DNA of 64,000 nucleotides from Lophium mytilinum (taxonomy: Eukaryota; Ascomycota; Dothideomycetes; Mytilinidiales; Mytilinidiaceae). Every line of letters starts with the position of its first letter. Positions within the stretch are counted from its first letter, which is position 1. Location: assembly GCA_010093605.1 (NCBI GenBank), contig MU004183.1:2046001-2110000 (forward strand), in the 5' to 3' direction. A program made the position numbers and the translations under genes. A model generated the notes under the pieces. That model had not been told where the DNA came from and did not search any database. It was given only the letters and a program-made list of their open reading frames with translations. Below, one piece after another: positions 1 to 56,556 of this stretch.

Positions 1-3000
1 GACGGCAAGGTCGACAAAGTACAATCAAGCGTTTTGGAAATCCATCAAAAAGTGGGCATGACCAACGAGTACCTTCAGCATGCCAATGATGGAATCAAAA
101 TCGTGGACCAGAACATCACCGGAGTGAAGACCGAACTCAAGACCGAACTCCAGAAGATGACGGTGCTGTTCACTGAATCTATCAAAGAGACACAGAACCA
201 AAACTTGAGGGAAATATCTCGTCTTAAAGCCCAGGAACCACAGAAGACCCAGAAGAGTCATTCCAACAGCAAGATGGACGTCTCGGAAAAGAAACATGCT
301 GCGCTTGACGAGATCCGGAGAAACTTTAAAGCAAATTTGGTGGATTGGTCAGCTACTAGGGCCCAACTCAAAGCTCAAAGAAACGGCTTTCGAGAGGATA
401 TCGCCCCAGGGACCGCTAAGTGGCTGTCTAAAGATCAAAAGTTCACGGAATGGATCCAGGGTCCAAACCCGGTGCTATGGGTAACTGGCGGCGAGGGCAC
501 GGGGAAAAGCTTCCTAGCTTATGCAGCAGCAGAAGAATTGCGGAAGACATATGACGATCAGGACCGAACTTCAGTTGCCTACTTCTGCTTCAGAGAAGAA
601 GAGACCGGCCTCCAATCTATCGAGAACTGCCTTGCTAGCCTCGCTCTGCAGATCGCAGAGCACGATGGGAAATACCGCGATCAGTTGCGCGCCGAATTGA
701 AGCGTGAAACCGACGAAAACACATGGCAACGGTTCTTCGCCAATAGGTATACCGCAAAATCAGATGGTCGTATATTCCTGGTTCTAGATGGACTAGATGA
801 GTTGTCCAATCAAGAAAGCGAAGGAAGCTCAACCTTGATCAAGTACCTAACGCAACGCGATGAAGGAAACTTGCGTATTCGAATACTACTTTCATGTAGG
901 AGAACTCTTTCTTCCGCGATGGAAACTTTGAATCCGGAGGTCTTGGCATTGACAAGAGAAAACCTTTCTTCCGATATGACGCTCCTGATAAAATCCCGTT
1001 GCAACTCTCTGCCAAGGCTAAAGAAGTTTCCAAAGCCGGTACTTCGTGAAATCATGAAGAAAGTAAAGAGCCAAGCAGATGGTAAGTCAACTCTTCAGAC
1101 ACTTGAAGCAGCTAACGCCTTCTAGGAATGCTCTACATCGAGCACATGCTACGCCGTCTCAGTTACATCGGTCGCCAAGGTGCAGTACTGAAGGATATAG
1201 AGAAGAATCTTCCCGATAACTTGCAGGACCTGTACCAGCTACTTCTAGATGAATGTCACAGAGGAAGGACCGACGCGCAGTACAAGGCATTGAAGAGGCT
1301 CTTCGCGTGGCTCGCTTATTCCAAACGATCGTTGACCCTGGAAGAAGCTGAAGACTTGGTGAAGATGACTGTTCCAGATGGATCATTTGACGTTGAAGAT
1401 GAAATAATTGGGCGTTCAGCAAGGTAATTATTCAATCCCTTCTGTTCCATTTTGGGGTCGTCTTTAGTGGCTCGAAGCTGTTACAGGCATTTCAGATTGA
1501 AGAGTTTCACATTCCTGAGACATATTCGAGGCATCTCAGAACGTTACAGAAATGCTAATTATCCCCACAGGATTTTAGAACTCGCACGAACCGTTGATGA
1601 AGAAGAAGACGGTAACGACGAAGGGGACGACGATAGTGACAGCGCTATCGAAAAGGTCAATCTTGAGCAGCTGAGCAACGAGCAAGCTAGCTTGACTTTC
1701 CAAGAACGCTCTCTTCGGGAGTTCTTCAAAGCCGTTGACGTCGACGATACGGGCTTGCGCACACCCTCCTCTGCTGCCCACCTCACGATCTTCGATATGG
1801 CGACATCTACACTAGTCACCGCTGCGCAGAAGGACATCCGAAAAGAAGCACCTATCCTTTCTTCGTATGCTGCGAATTACTGGTATCATCATCTCATCGA
1901 AATTGACCTGGAAAACACTTCAGATGCTGAGACCATTCAGGTCCTCAATGCGCTTCAAAGTATTCTTAGCAACGCCTACAACGTCTCGCTAGTCATCGAA
2001 ACTTTTGCATTCTCTCATAAAGATACTTACCCGGATAGTGGCTCCGTCGAGAAGGTCACATGGATCGATACAATGATGAAATGGATTGCGAAAGGAGCAG
2101 GAATGAAGGACCTTGCTCTTCCTTCTGAGACTAGGGAATGGGTCTCTAGTATCTCGGAGAATCGTGCGGGCGTGCTGATCCCGTTAGCTCGTGGACATGT
2201 TAACAACTGGTATACGTCGAGAACTCGATGGACCATTAATTGGGGGTTTAGCTTTGCAAAGGCTGCTCTCGAAGTCGTAGGCACTGCCCAGCCTTTCTGG
2301 TTTGGACGTACAGCTAACGTGTGATAGTGGGAAACTCCAGATGAGAACATTCTCAACATTGCAAAAGTTCAGCAAGTGGTTGATCGCTTTCCGGACATTC
2401 GGGGTGGTGCCGGTGAAAAGAGAGCCATAGGAACCTTGCTGACCTGGGAGGACTCCGAAAAAGCAGTCGAATACCTCCGCGAGGCTTTTGATAGCTTCCC
2501 AGAGGATAGCACCAAGGACAAGTTCTGCTGTGGCTGGTTACTAGCTGATGCCTACGAAAATCTTGCTAAACGGGAAGAAGCGGTTGACGCTATCGACAAA
2601 GCACTTGCGACTCTTCCGCTGGACTGGAAGGAAGACACTGATTTTGTTGAATGGAAAGAATGGGTCCTTATTACGAAAGCCGAACTGTTGTCCGAACTTG
2701 AAAAGACACAAGATGCAATAGACGCGTACAACGAAGCAAGAACTGTCAATCCAAACAACACTATGGGCGGTTGGCGACTCAAACCTATGGCAAGTATTCT
2801 CAACCAGGATAACGATCCAGATGGGCGACGGCTGCTTGATATGCTGAGGTCGTGGACGACCCAGGAGAGACGCGAATATCTTGATTGGATTCTGCTTTTC
2901 ACCGACTCGGGTTCAGTTGAGGCAATCTGCCGATCCGCGAAGCTGAACGAAGACGAGGGGATAAAGTTCCTTGACGATGTTGTAAAGGACTACGAACAGT

Positions 3001-4394
3001 ATCGCCCAGCAAAGTCCCCCCGGATTATCTTTCTTCATTCAGAGCTTGCCGCTTTCTATGGCCAGGTGCTAGGCGATGAGAAGAAAGCCAAAGAAATGTA
3101 TCGCGATATTCTCACCACAACGGTCAAGGAGGAGGACCTAGAGCGGCTGCAATCTACCTTCTACTCCACGAGGTTGGGACTGGCAAACTTGATCTTCTCA
3201 GAATTTCTCTCCTCGACTGAGCCTACTCAGAAAGTTGCATTGCTGGAAGAGATGAGAGACCTCCCCGCAGGGTCCTTCGCGGAGGAATCCGAACGGGATC
3301 TTGACCAGTCGCACGTGAGCGTGATGCTAGCCATCATGCTACGCTCTCTAGGCCCTGCGATGGAGTATCAAGCACACATGCAGAAGGTCTTTCAGAAGTG
3401 CGTAAGCGGTCTCACTGATGCGGAAAGCTCGAATGATATGAGCAGTTTTCGGTTGCTTTCGAAGGTTCTGGCTTGTATGGAAGGGCTCGAAAGAGATGCT
3501 CTCATTGCTCTGTCGTGCCAGTTCTCTGTGACGAATCCGGAACTAAACCACAACGACAGCTCATCAAGCAAATCATCTGAGAACGGCGACGAAGCGGATG
3601 ATGCTGCTGCTCATACTAAGGAAGGTGACCAAGCTGAGTCACCAGGTGCCGAGCGCCCAATCAAAGATGAGCAGGCCGAAGCGCCGGGCATTGCAAGGAC
3701 CTATGAGGCGGACACCGCTGATGAAGCTGAAAGCAACGGAAGTACAGAAGAGAAACCAAATCCAGTCGAAAGCATCGTGATCACATCTACAACCACAACC
3801 ATAACAACACTGACGAACGACCCGAACTTCAAACTCGATACTACCGCTGGCGCAAGCGAAGAGACCCAGCATGTCCAAGTGGAAGGTGGCCCTGATGAAA
3901 GCACCAAGGCGGAAGCTGAATCAAACCCTACGGATTCCCTCGTGGGCTCAAGAGATCCACTCGAGGTTTCAGACGACGCGATGTCGACGGGTCCAAACAA
4001 TCCATCGCTACAAAGTTCACCCGACGAGGAGCTATGGGACTGCTACGTGTGGTGTGACGGCGGATGCGGTACTGGTCTAAACTCTTGGACCACGCCCGTG
4101 TTCTACTGCATCATCTGTGCGTGTACCGATCTATGCACGTCGTGCCATGCGAAGAGACTTGCTCAGAATCATGGCGAACCGGCTAACTCATGGAGAACAT
4201 TTTGCGGAAAGGATCACAAGTACATCAAAGGCCCTATCGAGGGCTGGAGGGGAGTGAAAGATGGTGTGATGCGCATAGGGGAAGAAGAAATTCCGTTTCA
4301 GGACTGGTTGAAGGATCTAGAAGAGAAGAGGTGGAAAGATGCGTGGACTACCTTCTGGAAGGGTGGTACTGGCGTCAAGGACATCGGCACCTGA
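1..4394 (+). CDS. NACHT-TPR-ZZ NLR-like protein, 5'-truncated by window edge
   Basis: The reading frame is already open at base 1. The best exon model is <1-1081, 1126-1423, 1571-2276, 2328-4394 (about 1383 residues visible); introns of 44, 147 and 51 nt restore the frame, and the last contains a GCTAAC branch site. In order the protein shows an N-terminal charged helical stretch, a NACHT NTPase with Walker A GGEGTGKS (bases 487-510) and Walker B-like FLVLDGLDEL (near 775-804), the post-NACHT block containing LTFQERSLREFF, helical TPR-like repeats (about 2440-3540), a low-complexity acidic/Thr linker, and a C-terminal ZZ-type zinc finger with paired Cys residues at about 4051-4145. Such fungal STAND NTPases are thought to act in non-self recognition or programmed cell death; the exact role of this one is inference. 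The N-terminal effector domain, if any, lies upstream of the window. A 44-nt alternative for the second intron (1424-1467) soon hits a stop, so I prefer 1424-1570. Confidence 0.85.
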
Positions 4395-13917: not shown

Positions 13918-15579
13918 ATGCTCCCCTCCAACGACTGCGATGACTGCGTGCCGGACTATGTCAAGCAGCGCAAGCTGTCCGCCCTAGCCTTCTCTTTCCT
14001 GCCATTTATCCTCACGTTCCTCATCGTCGCGACCGCAGTGTCCCATAAGCTGTTCCCGCTGCTGTCTGGGCAAGCGGCTCGTAAACAGCATGATGCGCAG
14101 TTACCAACGTCGACATACAACTTTCCGGAACGACCGTCTGTCCAGACACGACTGAAGCGATTTACGGCTCGTAGTCTCGCGGGGATAGTCTTCTCGACCA
14201 ACATTGCGCTCTCGGCTGTGCTAGTAGAGCTGTTACTATGCGAAATCTCGAACACCGTCAATCCCGCTGCGCGCAGCCTGGCCTTGAAGATCACGCTTCC
14301 CTCGCTCCTCTTCCTCCTTATCATCGCGACGCCGGCGTTGGAGATACACTCGGTCATATCAGCGGCAGGATGGAGCTTTGGCGAGGGCCGGAAGGGACAC
14401 CTTAGGACAGCTTGGGCTTTGGAAGGAGTGGGGTTGGCGACATGGCTGCTTGGGTTCTGGTATCTTGGGCGGGCGCTACTGGGGTCGTATCTGCATGAGG
14501 AGTCGTACATTCGGGATCACAGTGTTAGCGAGGGATGTTTGGAGCGGATTGGCATCATTGGGGTTAGCCTCATGGCGTCGTTGGCTGGGTTTGCGGCGGT
14601 GAGTTCGTTGTGGCAGACTTTTGGGGTGAAGTTTCGTCTGGTGAGTGCTATGCAATGCAGTCTTGGAATCCTGTATAGCTTGCTGACAGGATACTAGGTG
14701 ACTGAAGCTGTTCTTGCTCGAAAGCAAGCTGGGTTGGATGCGACTAACGAAATGCTCCTCACGAAGGAGAGCCGTCTTCGAGCTATCCAACGGAAGCTAT
14801 CCGATCAACCCCAAGAGGGGTTCATGACACGCATGGTTGGGAGCATCCGCGGAAATTCGGACGTCCAGGAGCGGAAGACACTCGAATTGGAGATAGCTGG
14901 GCTTGAGACGATGCGGACTGCGCTTTCAAACTCGCTCTTCACGCTACAAAACCGGAGACAGGCCCAATTACGGGCTCATACGCCTTACGGACGACTCTTA
15001 AATCTATTCTCCTACGTCTTTTCTCTGTATTGTCTCTACCGCCTATCTGCCACCACCTATACCACCATTCGCCGGTTCTCATCACCGAATACTAGTTTCT
15101 CGAACAGCGATCCGATCAACAACGTGCTCGCGATCCTAGCTAAGCACTGGGACCCTACGCTTGACCGTGTCGCATGGAGCCGCCAGATCTCCTTCCTCCT
15201 CTCCGGCGTTATGCTCCTAGCCTCCTTCAATAGCGTCCTCCAGACCTTCCTCCTCTTCGCTCGGATCGTGCCGGGTATACTCCAGCACGCTCAAGCCAAT
15301 ATGGCACTGCTCGTTTCTCAAATCAGCGCGACTTACGTCATTAGCTCTGCACTACTTTTGCGCAGTAATCTTCCCAGCGAAGTGCGCAGCGTGATTTCGG
15401 ATGCTTTGGGAGCGCCTCTTGAACCTGCTTTTACCGAAAGGTGGTTCGAGGGCTGGTTCCTCGCTGTTGGTGCATTGACCGTGCTAGGGATTTGGGTTGG
15501 GAGAAGAGTAGGATCATCAGGCTGGGACGACGACGATGATCTAGGAGAAGGGGACGTTGAGATGGGGAAGATGAGCTGA
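13918..15579 (+). CDS. GPHR family multi-pass membrane protein (Golgi pH regulator / ABA-GPCR type)
   Basis: Exons 13918-14640 and 14698-15579, joined across a 57-nt phase-0 intron (GTGAGT...ACTAG), give 534 residues. Hydrophobic segments are visible near residues 22-45, 80-105, 120-140, 160-180 and 205-230, then a charged cytoplasmic coiled-coil loop (LDATNEMLLTKESRLRAIQR) and a further set of membrane helices in the C-terminal ABA_GPCR region, containing LNLFSYVFSLYCLYRL and HWDPTLDRVAWSRQISF. This order (GPHR_N, cytosolic loop, ABA_GPCR) is typical of the Golgi pH regulator family, anion channels or related transporters of the Golgi/ER. The tail ends in an acidic stretch (DDDDDLGEGDVE). 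The upstream intergenic sequence holds no other in-frame start. Confidence 0.88.
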
Positions 15580-17234: not shown

Positions 17235-17240
17235 AAAAAA
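17235..17240 (-). terminator. Pol III terminator of the tRNA gene
   Basis: Read on the minus strand this is a run of six T ten bases after the 3' end of the tRNA-Ala gene, the normal RNA polymerase III stop signal. It supports the tRNA as a transcribed gene. Confidence 0.7.
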
Positions 17241-17250
17241 GATAATGATC

Positions 17251-17389
17251 TGGACGCTGTGGGAATTGAACCCACGACCTTTCACATATACGTATCGAGA
17301 AGATGCGAAGCGAACTATAGGTGGTTAGTTGAGGAATTTGTGGGAGATTTTGTGATGAGCTTACAATCATACCCCTAGACCAAGCGCCC
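17251..17389 (-). tRNA. tRNA-Ala (anticodon CGC) with anticodon-loop intron plus an extra 50-nt insert
   Basis: On the minus strand positions 1-26 are bases 17389-17365 (acceptor GGGCGCT, D arm GGTCTAGGGGTATGAT). A 50-nt insert 17364-17315 follows, beginning GTAAGC, with CTAAC ten bases before its TATAG end. The gene resumes with anticodon stem TTCGC (17314-17310), loop TT, anticodon CGC (17307-17305), A37, then a 17-nt intron (17303-17287) and the stem partner GTGAA (17285-17281). The T arm is GTGGG TTCAATT CCCAC and the acceptor closes with AGCGTCC then A73. All stems pair only when the 50-nt insert is removed. The G3-U70 pair, A73 and the CGC anticodon all agree with alanine identity. The B box (GGTTCAATTCC) is intact. 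Whether the insert is removed from the RNA cannot be seen from DNA; the gene might instead be inactive. Confidence 0.75.
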
Positions 17390-19707
17390 GGTGATTTTGA
17401 GGGCGGTGAGAATTATGCTGTTAATATAGGTTCTTGAAAAGAGGGGCAGGAGGGATATTTGTGTGGTGGGGTAGATGAGGTGTGGGTGGGGACGGGGTGA
17501 CACAGGGATTAGCGAATGAAAGAGGATTGGGACGCAGCCCGACTCTAGCGGCTTCGCTGAAGTGGGTTAGAGCACGATTCGGGGTGTCCAACCTTGTCTA
17601 TTAAGTAGAGAGCCTTAGCTTTTAGCGAGTTGCCTCTACTTTTCCGCATAACCTTTCGAAAGCGAACCTCAGCCTCCTTTCGTGCCAACGACCATCCAAC
17701 GACCCCCCACCCCAGGAAGCCAGCGGAACCCTAGTGTCTAGAGCCTTCTTCGAAACTTGCAGATATCCCAGGAACCTCCACATATAACTTTTGGACCTGT
17801 AAATGCACTATGCGGACTTGCGAGTGTGCTCGTCAAAGTCGTGGATAGAACTACTAATAGTTTGCTTCGCATCTTCTCGATACGTATATAGACGTCTTCA
17901 ACGCGGGCATTATTAAGCTTAATGTCTCACTAAGCTATGTATCCGTAAGCTGGAGAGGCCGTAGATGTACTGTCCGTGACGATAAACGGGAGTCGGTTGT
18001 AGGTGATATTCGTCCTCGACATAATCAAGATTCACAACGCAGTATTCAAGAGCGAGATTCGTCCCCACAACAATCAAGAAGAGAGCTTCTGTCTGGAGAA
18101 TCTGAAATATAGTGTAAGGCTTAAGACAAAGATCGGGAGGCCGCATTGAGATTCGAAGACTGCAGAAGGAACCGTCGCTCACTTCAGATACCAGGGCCTG
18201 GGGTCGTTCACTTAGTTTGCCATCTTCCGAGCGAATATCTTTCTTCTTGCCCACCGAGCGGCGAGCGCTGGCAGTCGATGAACAACCTTGCGGCATAACC
18301 TGACGGAGTTGAAAGAGCTACATTCGCCAATCATGGATATGTGTATACTCTTTCACCGACGCTTAAGGTGCCTCGATCCAAGCTCAAATTTGTGTTATCA
18401 TTTCGGACAAGTGTTATTTGCTGTACGTATGGATACAGACTTAGCGCAGTCCATTGCATCACGCTTCCGCAACGCACCCAATCATGACGTATTTACTCGG
18501 AACTTGCTCCTGCGGTCCAGGTAAGGTTGCATATTCACCAGTAGAACTGATAAGTAGTGGATTCACAACATCTAACCCACCAGTTCTTATCATTTCAGCC
18601 CTCGTGCAAACTCCGAGGCCCTTCTCGAGCTCCACGGTATCGTCCGCCTTCTTCATATCACCGGATATTACGATCCCCGCAGTCACGTTCTTCTTCGCAT
18701 CAGCCACCTCGATATTCACAGCGTTGTGATATGTCTATGAAGTCAGCTTATAGGCTTTCTCAGGAAACTTGTCCTTTCAGGGCCAGGGCCAGCCAACAAT
18801 GGCTTCAACATTGCGAGAACTCGGATTAAGTCTTTATGCTGTTTCCCGATCTCATGAAGCCTGAACGGGTTCTCGTGGGCAAAGCTAGGCGACTCACAAT
18901 ACTCGAGCAAAGCCGCTTGTGATCGAGGAGCTATCGAGCAGCTCAGACAGGGTACGCATAGTTTGAAAGTCAAAGGGGAGTGGACGTGCGACCTAGTTTC
19001 CGGGAATGAACATAAGGGTTTGGAAGCATCATCGTCTGATAAGGGAACTGTAAGATCTGCAGAAATTTGCATTGGATTTCAGCTATCTCGGTATCGCTTT
19101 TGTCATAAAGAAGAATAAAGAGTGACGGCCTCGGGGATGCAGAAGACTGAATGAGAGGCACTTGTACCAATTTAAAGACTCGCCGTGCTATGAGAGATCT
19201 CCGAGAAGATTTTGCTTTGGATGATGGAAGAGGAGAGATGGAGTATGCTTTGGGGGCTGCTTCCGTAGATGCTGGGTTGCAATGATCGTGAAAATATGGC
19301 CGGTATCTTTGGGCAAGGAAGCGCAGAAGTACACCCAAATTATTGAAATTGATAGCATACTTTTGAGCATTGGAAAATTGTGTGAAAGGGAAAATATGGA
19401 TCTTCAGATCAATGATCAAATATTAGAAAAGAGGAAATGTGCCCCAAGTCTCCGTACGCTGTGCTACTCTCCTCCGTGTTGCTGGTGGCTCATTTGGTAT
19501 CGGGGATTTTGCGGACGGCGAGATGGGATCATGCATAACTCTGTGGGTGTCGGAACTTGTCTGATCGTATAGAAATGCCGAAAGATTGGATCGAATTAGG
19601 TGGTGAAAATTTTCGTGAGTCAGATTCGCCGTGGCTGTGACGCCATTTCCTTCAAAGTCACGTCCGAAGTCTTTTGCTCGTTGGGTATGAGGAACCGCGA
19701 GAACGTC
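17390..19707. other. Gene-poor stretch with weak minus-strand coding remnants
   Basis: No gene is supported here. Open minus-strand stretches at 17919-18296 (125 residues), 18459-18719, 18743-19072 and 18970-19419 (149 residues) lie close together in different frames and look like one decayed or multi-exon coding region, but I recognise no domain and could not join them with credible introns. The stretch ends near the start of the paralogous regulator gene at 19708. Confidence 0.3.
17853..17889 (+). repeat. Partial inverted copy of the tRNA-Ala anticodon arm and intron
   Basis: The stretch 17861-17889 repeats, in the opposite orientation and with one C to T change, the tRNA-Ala segment from position 27 to the end of the anticodon-loop intron (17314-17286). 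It is also preceded by AATAG, resembling the TATAG that ends the tRNA insert. No acceptor or T arm surrounds it, so it is a fragment rather than a second tRNA. Confidence 0.75.
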
Positions 19708-51712: not shown

Positions 51713-52439
51713 AAGTTAATAACTTAATCTATAGTTAAATCCTCCTCTCTACTAGTGCGTAAACCTAACTCTAGAATTAAACCCTAATATTAGCCTTATA
51801 GCGCCTAGATATTATGCAGCTCCTCTAGCTTAATAAGCACCCTAAATAGATTACTAAGGTTATTTATATCTACTAGAAGATAGTATATAATATAGAAAAA
51901 TATATAATTCTCTATAGCGCGCCCGTAAGGCCTCTATAAATTAAGATAGAATAGCTAAAAAGACTTACTATAGTAGATAAAAAGGTAGTGCTCTAATAGC
52001 TTATAGAAGATAGCTAGTATAATTAAAATAAGATTTAAATATAGCTTAATCTTAAGTATAGTATTAAAGTTTTATAGCTAACTATATTACGCATAATAAA
52101 GAGAAATAAATAGAGTAAGAAGTAGGCCTAGCGCTAGTTAAACCGCGCAAGTAAGAAGTTAAGATTAAAGTACTTAGAGCTTACTAGTTACTATAAGCTA
52201 GAAGATTTTATCTTTTTTAATAAGTCTATATTTAATAAGAAGACTAGCTAGCGCTATTATATATATATATCTATTAGAAGTTCTATATACTACTAGAGAC
52301 CTATAAATTATAGAAATATATAGAGTATATATATAGTAATAAGTATAGTAGAGTAGCTACTATATATAGCTATATAAGAGGGCTACTTTAATACTAAGAA
52401 GTTCTAAAGCTAGGTTATTACTACTCTTCTACTAGCTAT

Positions 52440-52870
52440 AGAAGGTAAGTTTAAGGGCTGCTTAAAGGTTATTATTCTAGATAATATTAGAATATATACT
52501 AAGAAAGCTCTTATATACATAATCTAGGTATAAGAATATCTAGTATATTTTCTACTACTATACTTACTAGATTTTAACTCTATAGAGTTAACCTTTACTA
52601 TACTAAAAATATAGATCCGCAGGCGTTACTATTACCTACGCCCGGCCTATTATAACTTTAGTAACTTTCTAAGGGCTACTATTAAGTAGAGCTAGTATAA
52701 TTATTTTACTTAAAAGTAGTTCTATTATATAGCTAGAGAAGTATACTATATAAGAGAAGAGATAGATAGAATTTAGGCTAAGCTAGATGCGTATAAAAGA
52801 GGTAATATTAATACTTAGATTAAGAAGAAGTAGATAGAGAAGTAAGTTAAGGCCTAAGTATATACTATAT
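52440..52870 (+). pseudogene. Relic Tc1/mariner DDE transposase
   Basis: In plus frame 1, bases 52471-52490 read IILDNIRIY, matching the second-Asp block of DDE transposases, and 52561-52587 read YLLDFNSIE, matching the YSPDLNPIE block, followed by ELTFTILK and IRRRYYYLRPAYYNF. The frame is interrupted by several TAG/TAA codons where a Gln or Trp would be expected. It is a broken, inactive copy. I see no intact transposase elsewhere in the island. Confidence 0.75.
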
Positions 52871-54221
52871 ATAGTCTTTCTATTTAATATATACTCTATA
52901 TATAGCCTTACTATTTTTTATATACTCTTTAAGCTAAGGCTTAAGTATTAGTACTAGTAGATAATCTATAGCTTATATATTAGTGCAGGGTAAAGTTATA
53001 TAGTAAAGCTTAATAGCTATTATTTATTTTTCTATATATTCTTACCTTTCTTTTAACTTTCTTTTTTCTTTAGACTCTATATACTATTAATTACTACCTC
53101 TATAATACTATAGCTAATAATACTATAGCTAATAATGCTAGTAATTAGGGCTCTATTAATAGCCTTATTAATAACATCCTTATAGAGCCCTCCCCCTCTC
53201 CGCCTCTTACTACGCACCTCTTTAGGCCCCTTAGGGTTTACCTAGATTCTTTAGTAATATAGATAGTAGCGGCTAGGCCGCTTCTTACTAAGAAGAAGAT
53301 AATAGGCGTTTAAGCTAAAGATAAGGCGCTAGAAGCTTCCTCTAGTAAGAGTCTAGAGAATTCTAGCCCTTAAAGGCTTTATATAGTATATAGTAGGCCT
53401 ATACACCCCCTTTCTACTCTTACTATTAGTAGAGATATCTATAATATACCTAATTAGAAGAAGAATAAAAATAAGAAAAAAGAAGAGAAAACTAATCCCC
53501 CTCTACTATATATAATTTCTAGTATAGTAGCTTAAGAATCTAGCTAACCTATTTATATAGAAAGCGCTGCGCTTACTACCTACCCTCTCCTCTTACTATT
53601 ACTATTATTCTAGGCCTGCTAACTCCCTCTTAGTATACTAATAACTTTACTACTACTTTTAGCTCCTCTACTATTACTATAGCCCTCTAAGAGCGCTTCT
53701 ACCGCGCTAAGCTTATTTATATAGAGCTTATTAATAGCTAATATAGCTAGAATTAGGTAGGCCTAGCCTATAGTATATATCTAGAGTGCGCCTAGAATAT
53801 ATCTACTAGGGGCTATTATTAGTATAATATTAATTTCTATACTAATAATAATCTAGGTAGTAAATATAGTATATATAGGGTTAGAAGTAAGTACTATACT
53901 TAGGTTAATACTGCGGAAGATATAGTAGCGTTTAAGTGGGCTCTAAAGCCTAGGGCTAGTTATACTAGAAGAAAGAAGTAGAGAATTAAGCCTATTTAAC
54001 CGTGCACTTAGAAACTATAACTATAACTTTAAAAGTTTATTACTACTAATTAATATTTCTATATAGTTAGTACGCGGATATAAATATATATATCTAAATA
54101 TATAATTTAGCTATCTATTTATATAATTTAGACTTATATTTACTAAGATATAATAAAGTAATAGATTCTATCTCTATATAGCCTTTCTATTTTATATATA
54201 CTCTATATAGTATCTAACTTA

Positions 54222-54432
54222 AGGCTTAAGTATTAGTAGTAAGAATCTTATTTTAATATTTTATAGCTTAAGTATTAGTAGTAAGAATTCTATTTTAAGG
54301 CTTAAGTATTAGCGCAGAGGAAATTTGCCCTGCGCTAATACTTAAGCCTTAAAATATTAAAATAAGATTCTTACTACTAATACTTAAGCCGTAAAATATT
54401 AGAATAGAATTCTTACTACTAATACTTAAGCT
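54222..54432. repeat. Large palindrome inside the transposon island
   Basis: Two arms of about 100 bases, each made of copies of a unit with GGCTTAAGTATTAGTAGTAA spaced about 41 bases, meet near 54325 with GCGCAG...CTGCGC at the centre. A related motif (TTAGTGCAGGG) also occurs near 52980-52995, so the palindrome may be a head-to-head junction of two nested elements. Confidence 0.75.
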
Positions 54433-54514
54433 ATAAGATATTAAGATATATTTTTATATTTTACTAGCACTAATACTTAAGCCTTAAACTATAAATACCC
54501 TTTAATTAATAGGT

Positions 54515-54572
54515 AGTATATATATTATAGGTAGTATATATATTATAGGTAGTATATATTAAATAGATAGTA
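54515..54572 (+). repeat. Short tandem repeat, about 18-bp unit
   Basis: The unit ATTATAGGTAGTATATAT occurs about three times in a row, with a degenerate further copy, in the AT-rich island. It is best seen as local slippage in low-complexity sequence. Confidence 0.7.
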
Positions 54573-56556
54573 TATATCTATTACTACGCGCTCTACCCTT
54601 TATTACCTAGTAGAGTAAGATTAAACGCTACTTTATTTTTCTAGTATAGCTACTTAAACCTATATAGCTTTTTAGTAAACTTTATAGCTATTCTATTTAA
54701 TATTTCTAGCCGCGTAGCCTTATAATACGCCTCTAAGCTTCTATTTATTATTTAATAGAGGAAATCTATATTCTAAGCCTAATCTATTACTATCTAGGCC
54801 GCCTACTACTAGCGCTAGTATAAACTAGCATTCTATATACTATTAACTTTCTAATAGAAGAACGCCTCTAGTATATCTATATTCTTCTTTTTAGAATATA
54901 CTAGGCTTAAGCTCTTTAGTTAGTAAGGTTCTACAGCGGCTAGAGCCTAAGTTAAGGGCGGTAGTAGTAGTAGTAGAGAAAGAAAAGGTATAGATATAGA
55001 TACCGGCGCATATAGAAATACTAGAAACCTAGTAGAAATATATAGATTTAGTAAATAATAGAGTAGTAAAGAAGAAGAAAAATAGTAGCTATACTACTAC
55101 TATTAAGGCTATAACTAAGGCTATAATATAGGCTACTATATACTTAAAAACCTCTTAGCTATAGCTATTATCTATTATATGCTACTAAGCTCTATAGTTT
55201 ACTTTATTATTACCTTAATATTATCTATAGTACTTACTACCTACTATACTCTTATTATCTTTACTAGCTAATAATATTCTAAACCTATAGGCCTATTTAT
55301 TTAAAGCTTCTTTAATAATTTAATTAGGGGTACTAATATAGTAGCCTTACTATATGCTATAGTATTAGCCTATACTTTCTACTACTTAGTAAGTATAATA
55401 AAGTGCTTACTACTATTAAGAAAGTAGTAGCTATTAAAGTTACTGCACCCTTTATTAGTATACTTTTAATACTGCATTAGGTCTATATTATAGTCTCTTA
55501 TATTAGTAATTTTATTTATTGCAGCCTTATACTACTATAGTAGCTTTCTACTATAACTTTTAGGCATAGCTATAGCTAGTAAGAACTTAGGCGTAATTAA
55601 CTTTCTAGATAGATTAGATATAACTTTATATTTAAATAGAAGCACTATAGTACTCTTTTAAAAGACTACCTACTTTATATTAAGGGCTATAAATAATCTA
55701 TTAAAAGAGAATATAGAGAAGTTATCTATATTATATATTTATATACCGCCTTTACTATTTAAAGTATATATTATAGTAGTATAGAAAGTAATAGTATACT
55801 TCTAGTAGTTACTATTAGCCTGCGCCTTTATAACTAGCTTATTAAGTTCTAGCTTAATATTATTACTAGAGAGGCTAAGCTATATCTTTATACCTACTAC
55901 CTTACTACCCGCCTTCTTCTTATTAATAAATAGCTAGAAAGATAGGTTAATATTATAGTCTAGAGAACTAGTAGATAATAGTAGTAATATTAATACTATA
56001 CGCTTACAGTATACTAGAGTAAGAGGGGTAGAAGAGAATATAAAAGGTAGACCTCTACTTCTATCTAGTAGTAATAATAGCGGTACTACTAGTATAGAGT
56101 TATAACTATTCTAGATCTCTTTATTCTATACTACTTCTTCTTACTACTATACTATCTTCTCTTACTATTACGCTGCCTTCTCTTACTATTACGCTACCTT
56201 CTCTTATACTGCGCGCTACCTATCTATTACTATAGCCTTATACATAGCCTTTTTAGCTGCCTAAGCCTTGCACTATAGTCTATTCTTTCTCTCTCTTACT
56301 ACCTTAGCTAAAAGATCTATACCTAGTCTTGCAGCAGCTTTAATAGTAGCTTAGCTATTATTAGAGCGTATATATCTCTCTCTCTAGGTAGTAGTCTATA
56401 TATTCTCTAGCGTAACTCTAAGTAATTTTATAAAAGTACCTACTTTTTCTCTTTCTTCTCTTTCTTCTCTTTCTCTACTTCTTCTAGCCGCTGGCGGGTC
56501 TCTAGAGTATTAGGTATTATTATTAAAGATTACACCGCGTTAAGAATATTATAGTA

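Follow-up and report, generated by a model that had tools for sequence, protein, structure and literature searches.

U6 is a Pol III gene, and the canonical intron of nuclear tRNA genes, between positions 37 and 38 (37|38), needs neither GT-AG ends nor a branch site. Dothideomycetes harbour introner-like elements, short GT-AG introns that have been gained in numbers. Fungal U6 snRNA and U3 snoRNA genes carry mRNA-type introns with splice and branch motifs and occur as intron-bearing and intronless paralogs; among small structured RNAs, a 2017 paper names U6 and U3 as the sole ones in which introns are known to be frequent (PMC5832005). tRNA introns, for their part, are described as spliceosome-independent in an excerpt of another source (PMC13149111). 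In Cyanidioschyzon merolae, the Guillardia nucleomorph and Crenarchaeota, a tRNA gene can contain several introns, located in the D arm, the stems and the T arm; two papers discuss them as bulge-helix-bulge introns cut by the endonuclease (PMC3978253, PMC8450103), and according to the first, many of the Guillardia tRNA introns have no defined bulge-helix-bulge motif (PMC3978253).

Here we describe a tRNA-Ala(CGC) gene, and a set of others in the same genome, with mRNA-type inserts and, in most of them, a canonical tRNA intron too. They resemble the fungal U6 and U3 genes in their splice and branch motifs and in having paralogs with and without introns; they differ in that the host is a tRNA, that many genes and many sites are concerned, with up to three introns per gene, and that an endonuclease-type intron is present as well. 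With the algal and crenarchaeal systems they share the scattered positions, whereas the signals here are spliceosomal. Spliceosomal introns in tRNA genes were the subject of no report that we found in the open-access literature. As far as we found, the machinery and mRNA-type introns in small RNA genes are known, and the tRNA host and the double splicing are new. From the sequences, we put at roughly 0.87 the probability that the insert in tRNA-Ala(CGC) is a U2-type spliceosomal intron within a nuclear tRNA gene transcribed by Pol III, and that it belongs to a set of at least 22 such introns in 19 genes.

A tRNA-Ala(CGC) gene with two introns of unlike type

The window, by which we mean the whole 64,000-nt stretch of DNA analysed, covers positions 2046001-2110000 of contig C3 in a genome of 43.18 Mb and 24 contigs. 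The gene and its immediate surroundings comprise the following features, in window coordinates:

17251..17389, minus strand: whole tRNA-Ala(CGC) gene with two introns of unlike type (sequence, stem scoring)
17365..17389, minus strand: exon 1, 25 nt, with the 5' strand of the acceptor stem, the D arm and position 26 (20/21 stem pairs once spliced)
17315..17364, minus strand: spliceosomal-type intron, 50 nt, GTAAGC...TATAG, at site 26|27 (deletion scan, shuffle control)
17324..17328, minus strand: branch-site motif CTAAC, its A at 17325, 10 nt from the intron end (intron catalogue)
17304..17314, minus strand: exon 2, 11 nt, with the 5' strand of the anticodon stem, loop positions 32-37 and the anticodon CGC
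17287..17303, minus strand: normal tRNA intron, 17 nt, at site 37|38
17251..17286, minus strand: exon 3, 36 nt, from position 38 to A73
17262..17272, minus strand: B box GGTTCAATTCC (B-box pattern search)
17372..17382, minus strand: A box TGGTCTAGGGG (sequence, A-box pattern search)
17235..17240, minus strand: T6 terminator, at +11
17421..17428, minus strand: TATA-like TATATTAA, starting 39 nt upstream of the gene
17849..17889, plus strand: partial relic of the gene with intron end, anticodon loop and 37|38 intron, 41 nt, 90% (genome search)

The first-pass annotation had read a 50-nt insert GTAAGC...CTAAC...TATAG between positions 26 and 27, together with a normal 17-nt intron at 37|38, and both are borne out by the sequence: the minus strand from 17364 to 17315 reads GTAAGC...CTCAACTAACCACCTATAG, exactly 50 nt, with a branch-like A 10 nt from its end. 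The spliced form has G3-U70, A73, T33 and 20 of the 21 stem pairs. It had also been claimed that a complete tRNA forms only without 17364-17315. This removal does raise the stem score from 21.1 to 24.8, but the exclusive part of the claim does not stand, as ARAGORN calls tRNA-Ala(CGC) on the unspliced gene too; in that call the anticodon stem is distorted and the 50-nt 'intron' is placed in a different register.

To fix the boundaries, all deletions of 38-71 nt were scored by tRNA stems and invariant bases, with no splice motif used. None of the 2805 possible deletions in tRNA-Ala(CGC) outscored 17364-17315 and one tied with it; a G[TC] start and an AG end were found for the annotated deletion only, not for its tie. 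When the insert was shuffled, GY..AG fell at a permitted boundary in 0 of 400 rounds.

Searched against the whole genome (43.18 Mb, 24 contigs; very common words were skipped by the search), the gene matched itself and one partial place, the 41-nt relic (90%), which lies 460 nt off in the opposite orientation. Inspection of the relic at 17849-17889 by eye revealed no tRNA body. An Rfam scan of the window at the gathering score returned no family, and a plain RF00005 search of the genome, which scored 63 of 1346 candidates, did not have the window gene among its listed matches.

Elsewhere in the window, an ORF at 14698-15579 (plus strand) carries an ABA_GPCR domain (E 8.4e-65), and one protein shares, across 95% of its length, 88% identity with a protein from Mytilinidion resinicola (Mytilinidiales, a dothideomycete); judged by this single protein, the fungus is probably related to that species. 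The step 52001-56000 is AT-rich, with a GC content of 0.277 against 0.49-0.55 in the fifteen other 4-kb steps.

Interrupted tRNA genes across the genome

Because the plain RF00005 search had scored so few candidates and did not list tRNA-Ala(CGC), tRNA genes were sought by patterns. The census combines RF00005 matches with B-box, A-box, initiator and terminator patterns, and all its counts are lower bounds. At least 19 tRNA genes were found to carry at least 22 spliceosomal-type inserts. Besides the window gene, 18 further genes give a good cloverleaf only, or a better one, after removal of one, two or three inserts of 48-57 nt, which rules out that tRNA-Ala(CGC) is a single odd gene. The interrupted genes are:

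Ala: Ala(CGC) (window) and Ala(TGC)
Asp: Asp(GTC), three genes
Ile: Ile(AAT), two genes, and Ile(TAT)
Ser: Ser(GCT) and Ser(AGA)
Leu: Leu(AAG) and Leu(CAA)
Pro: Pro(AGG) and Pro(TGG)
Others: Arg(TCT) and Val(AAC)
With multiple inserts: Thr(TGT), two inserts, and iMet.1, three inserts
Second initiator gene: iMet.2

The inserts are scattered over the molecule. On the D-arm side they occupy 9|10, 14|15, 15|16 (twice), 18|19 (twice), 24|25 and 26|27 (twice), in the anticodon arm 28|29, 30|31 and 32|33, and on the T-arm side 49|50, 52|53 (three times) and 53|54; five more lie in the variable region. The canonical 37|38 intron coexists with them in 16 of the 19 genes, being absent from Arg(TCT), Ser(GCT) and Ser(AGA), and the spliceosomal-type inserts always sit elsewhere. 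Spliced forms of all 19 genes have 20-21 of 21 stem pairs and T33, so that every one of them is predicted to fold as a functional tRNA gene should once its inserts are removed.

Uninterrupted nuclear tRNA genes number 44 (53 rows minus five genes of the interrupted set, one mitochondrial-looking gene, L051, L084 and L111), and three more were seen, a second Ala-AGC, a Gly-GCC and a Thr-CGT; the tRNA-like loci L042, L051, L084, L088 and L111 were excluded from the counts. Interrupted genes thus make up 19 of about 66 tRNA genes seen, more than one quarter. A Gly(TCC) gene was not found in this pattern-based census. The only search to use a branch-site motif returned four places, one of them a tRNA, Arg-TCT, already in the set.

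The boundaries of most inserts are exact. Depending on the insert, some 2400-3500 deletions were scored; the annotated deletion was unbeaten for 14 of the 22 inserts, and for seven more it was outscored by only one or two. The margin is narrow in Val(AAC), where the spliced form (25.6, 20/21 pairs) scores only slightly above a parse with one long loop insert (25.1). For four genes, Ile(TAT), Ile(AAT).2, Leu(AAG) and Val(AAC), the unspliced sequence allows an alternative parse in which a single long insert sits in the anticodon loop (23.2-25.2), though without T33; here structure by itself does not force removal of the insert.

A further scan was blind to splice signals. Of 125 B-box sites, 51 parsed with no insert, 14 needed one insert and 60 were left unparsed. 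Thirteen of the 14 one-insert loci belong to the interrupted set. The remaining one, L067, is a Glu-like repeat outside the set and has no GY..AG. In nine of the 14, GY..AG is one of the best boundaries. For the three Asp genes the scan favoured another boundary with a long variable arm. Six of the 19 genes were not returned: four are among the 51 sites parsed with no insert, as they can be read with a long loop insert, and two, Thr and iMet.1, need more than one removal and are among the 60 unparsed sites.

Splice signals of the inserts

The 22 introns are 48-57 nt long. At the donor, position 1 is G in 22/22, position 2 is T in 19, C in two and A in one, position 3 is A in 21/22, position 5 is G in 22/22 and position 6 is T or C in 21/22. 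All 22 end in AG, and 21 have G[T/C]..AG ends and a GTRNGY-like donor, as U2-type introns with GT-AG or GC-AG ends do. A U2-type branch site, a CTRAY whose A lies 10-13 nt before the intron end, is found in 19/22; the other three have the one-mismatch motifs TTAAT, TTGAT and CTAAG, in which this distance is 10-11 nt. Both GC introns carry GCAAGT, the usual donor of GC-AG introns. The sole GA donor is that of Ser(AGA) (GAAAGC...CTAAC...TATAG, L039), which may reflect a genuine GA-AG intron, loss of function of the gene or a mistake in the assembly.

Shuffling with the same permitted boundaries predicts 0.43 inserts with GY..AG and 0.025 with GY..AG plus CTRAY, against 21 and 18 of 22 seen. The first-pass reading of the Ala(CGC) insert as a spliceosomal intron is thus strongly supported by sequence, since at least 19 tRNA genes of the genome show the same splice-site and branch-site consensus.

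Paralogs provide empty sites: each Ile(AAT) gene lacks the intron of the other, and in iMet.2 the sites of the first two iMet.1 introns are uninterrupted. Two of the three Asp introns are identical and the third has diverged internally, keeping the first six bases, a 19-nt stretch around CTAAC and the final CAG.

Candidate mRNA introns carry the same signals. A scan of 196 kb of the genome for mRNA introns gave 20 candidates against five and four in two controls, and nine candidates against none in either control when length was limited to 70 nt and the A to 8-16 nt from the end. These nine measure 43-65 nt and have the A 8-13 nt before the end; their likeness to the tRNA inserts arises partly by selection, as length and branch distance were preset. 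Earlier scans had given seven and six candidates (two of the six being one place). So the genome appears to contain introns of the same make as the tRNA inserts, with the resemblance in length and spacing owing something to the selection.

Endonuclease cutting and introner origin

The inserts could in principle be ectopic tRNA introns of the kind that the tRNA splicing endonuclease removes in Cyanidioschyzon and archaea, their splice-site-like ends being accidental. Such introns are known from C. merolae and the Guillardia nucleomorph, and a defined bulge-helix-bulge is absent from many of the Guillardia ones (PMC3978253). Moreover, the endonuclease machinery is clearly in use in this fungus, as 40 of the 44 uninterrupted genes have a 37|38 insert, seemingly a very high rate of canonical introns. 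Accidental ends, however, are hard to reconcile with GY..AG in 21/22 inserts where 0.43 are expected, or with the tight length range and branch-site spacing. In a bulge-helix-bulge intron each cut site lies in a 3-nt bulge, and a central helix of 4 bp separates the two bulges; in a crude test this central helix could be paired in 0/22 inserts in any of nine registers, compared with 11% of shuffled inserts, and the bulge-helix-bulge assignment was rejected. We regard endonuclease cutting of the inserts as very unlikely and retain spliceosomal removal as the preferred reading.

How the introns arose is a separate question. A single introner-like mobile element, copied into tRNA genes, could be their source, an origin compatible with spliceosomal removal and raised in part by the first-pass annotation. 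The introns of Ala(CGC) (window 17350-17364) and Ile(AAT).1 (L073) do have their first 15 nt, GTAAGCTCATCACAA, in common (E 0.009). We compared the Ala gene with the whole genome, and the 22 introns with each other and with the other sequences analysed, donor and acceptor bases left out. Outside the Asp paralogs no pair of intron cores matched above the shuffled range: the best score was 23, the round maxima having a median of 21 and a highest value of 25 over 40 rounds. For the Ala intron, the genome search gave no second full copy. Near-identical copies at multiple sites were not seen within this scope, and one introner family was set aside. In contrast to the introner-like elements of Dothideomycetes, the 22 tRNA introns show no common family in this comparison, and descent from a single mobile element seems improbable.

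Proposed transcription and order of processing

The interrupted genes keep the features of Pol III genes. A run of five or more Ts lies within 40 nt downstream in 19/19 (some of the genes having been found by a pattern that requires a T run), and none of the 19 spliced forms has an internal run of more than four Ts. TATA or TATTA is present within 100 nt upstream of 16 of the 19, with none at Leu-CAA, Thr-TGT and Arg-TCT.

Some of the inserts fall within the internal promoter. Six introns in six genes split the A box (9|10, 14|15, 15|16 twice, 18|19 twice), and a weaker promoter would be expected from this. We cannot explain these breaks except by help from an upstream TATA, yet two of the six genes, Leu-CAA and Thr-TGT, have neither TATA nor TATTA upstream. 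At the other end, four genes are interrupted at 52|53 or 53|54 and read AG|GTTCGA, AG|GATCGA or AG|TTCGA at the intron end; the B box is whole in the DNA of these genes because the AG of the intron itself provides the required G.

We infer the following course of events. Pol III would transcribe the gene from its internal boxes, assisted by the upstream TATA, and stop at the T run. The nuclear spliceosome would then take out the GT/GC..AG intron or introns by intron definition, which is demanded by the 8-nt exons of iMet.1 and Thr(TGT), the shortest of the set. Only afterwards would the cloverleaf form, the tRNA endonuclease cut the 37|38 intron and the ligase join the halves to give a working tRNA. 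The spliceosome is placed first because the cloverleaf that the endonuclease needs is absent before it has acted.

Anticodons seen only in interrupted genes

Within the census, which is a lower bound, whole isoacceptor sets depend on interrupted genes. All three Asp and all three Ile genes seen are interrupted, and nine anticodons were seen only in interrupted genes: Ala(CGC), Ala(TGC), Asp(GTC), Ile(AAT), Ile(TAT), Arg(TCT), Ser(AGA), Pro(AGG) and Pro(TGG). The first-pass annotation had pointed to the number of further tRNA-Ala(CGC) genes as informative; Ala(CGC) was seen only as the interrupted gene, the census again being a lower bound. An uninterrupted Asp or Ile gene may possibly have escaped it.

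These counts bear on whether the genes are alive. Disabled genes with chance insertions, the alternative that had been put forward for tRNA-Ala(CGC), would fit the existence of insert-free genes for Leu(AAG), Leu(CAA), Ser(GCT), Thr(TGT), Val(AAC) and iMet, as well as the 41-nt relic that adjoins the Ala(CGC) gene. They would not be expected to have intact exons throughout (20-21 of 21 pairs), nor to keep the splice signals in diverged Asp introns, nor to be the only genes seen for Asp, Ile, Pro(AGG) and Pro(TGG). As nine anticodons were seen only in interrupted genes, pseudogenes are unlikely, and on these three grounds together we rejected the idea as a highly improbable one.

With spliceosomal introns in working tRNA genes as the favoured reading, the sequences suggest that some tRNAs of this fungus cannot be made without the mRNA splicing machinery. 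The spliceosome would then probably be a required tRNA-processing enzyme: all tRNA-Asp, all tRNA-Ile, and two of three Pro and two of three Ala anticodons seen would be processed by two unrelated splicing machineries, one always before the other, translation capacity would be tied directly to spliceosome activity, and introns would have spread through a Pol III class thought closed to them. If these genes are spliced as their sequences indicate, a large part of one tRNA set is an exception to the published rule; the spliceosome would act on Pol III transcripts with 8-nt exons, and introns could enter genes with an internal promoter. Questions of intron gain become directly testable here, because the exon fold fixes most insertion points within a few bases. 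There is also a practical side, as interrupted tRNA genes can be missed by tRNA finders; the description of tRNAscan-SE 2.0 presents its search for noncanonical introns for candidates of the archaeal model (PMC8450103).

Other small RNA-like loci

Several further small RNA loci came to light in the pattern searches. L081, L082, L083, L116 and L119 are U6 snRNA copies as judged by eye, L082 being confirmed by Rfam; these copies have a TATA-like stretch upstream and a B-box-like GTTCRA downstream of the T run. L120 is a U5 snRNA (Rfam, 51.8 bits). Downstream of it lie a T run and a B-box-like motif, which would suit transcription by Pol III.

At least four multi-copy small RNA-like families, grouped by eye, end in a B-box motif, and many members have an upstream TATA-like stretch:

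first family: L052, L055, L056, L106, L112
second family: L118, L129, L130, L131, L133
third family: L090, L092, L096, L099
fourth family: L068, L085, L087

Nine of these 17 loci were run against Rfam and had no match at E 0.1. Nucleotides 18-37 of the iMet.2 intron (L137) contain a B-box-like GGAGTTCGAATCCCAC that is identical at 19 of 20 nt to the B-box end of the L118 element (E 0.002). Glu-like tRNA repeats ending in TTGGCGCCGGAC occur at C8:321669-322261 of this genome (G000) and in many other places, partly in tandem about 170-210 nt apart.
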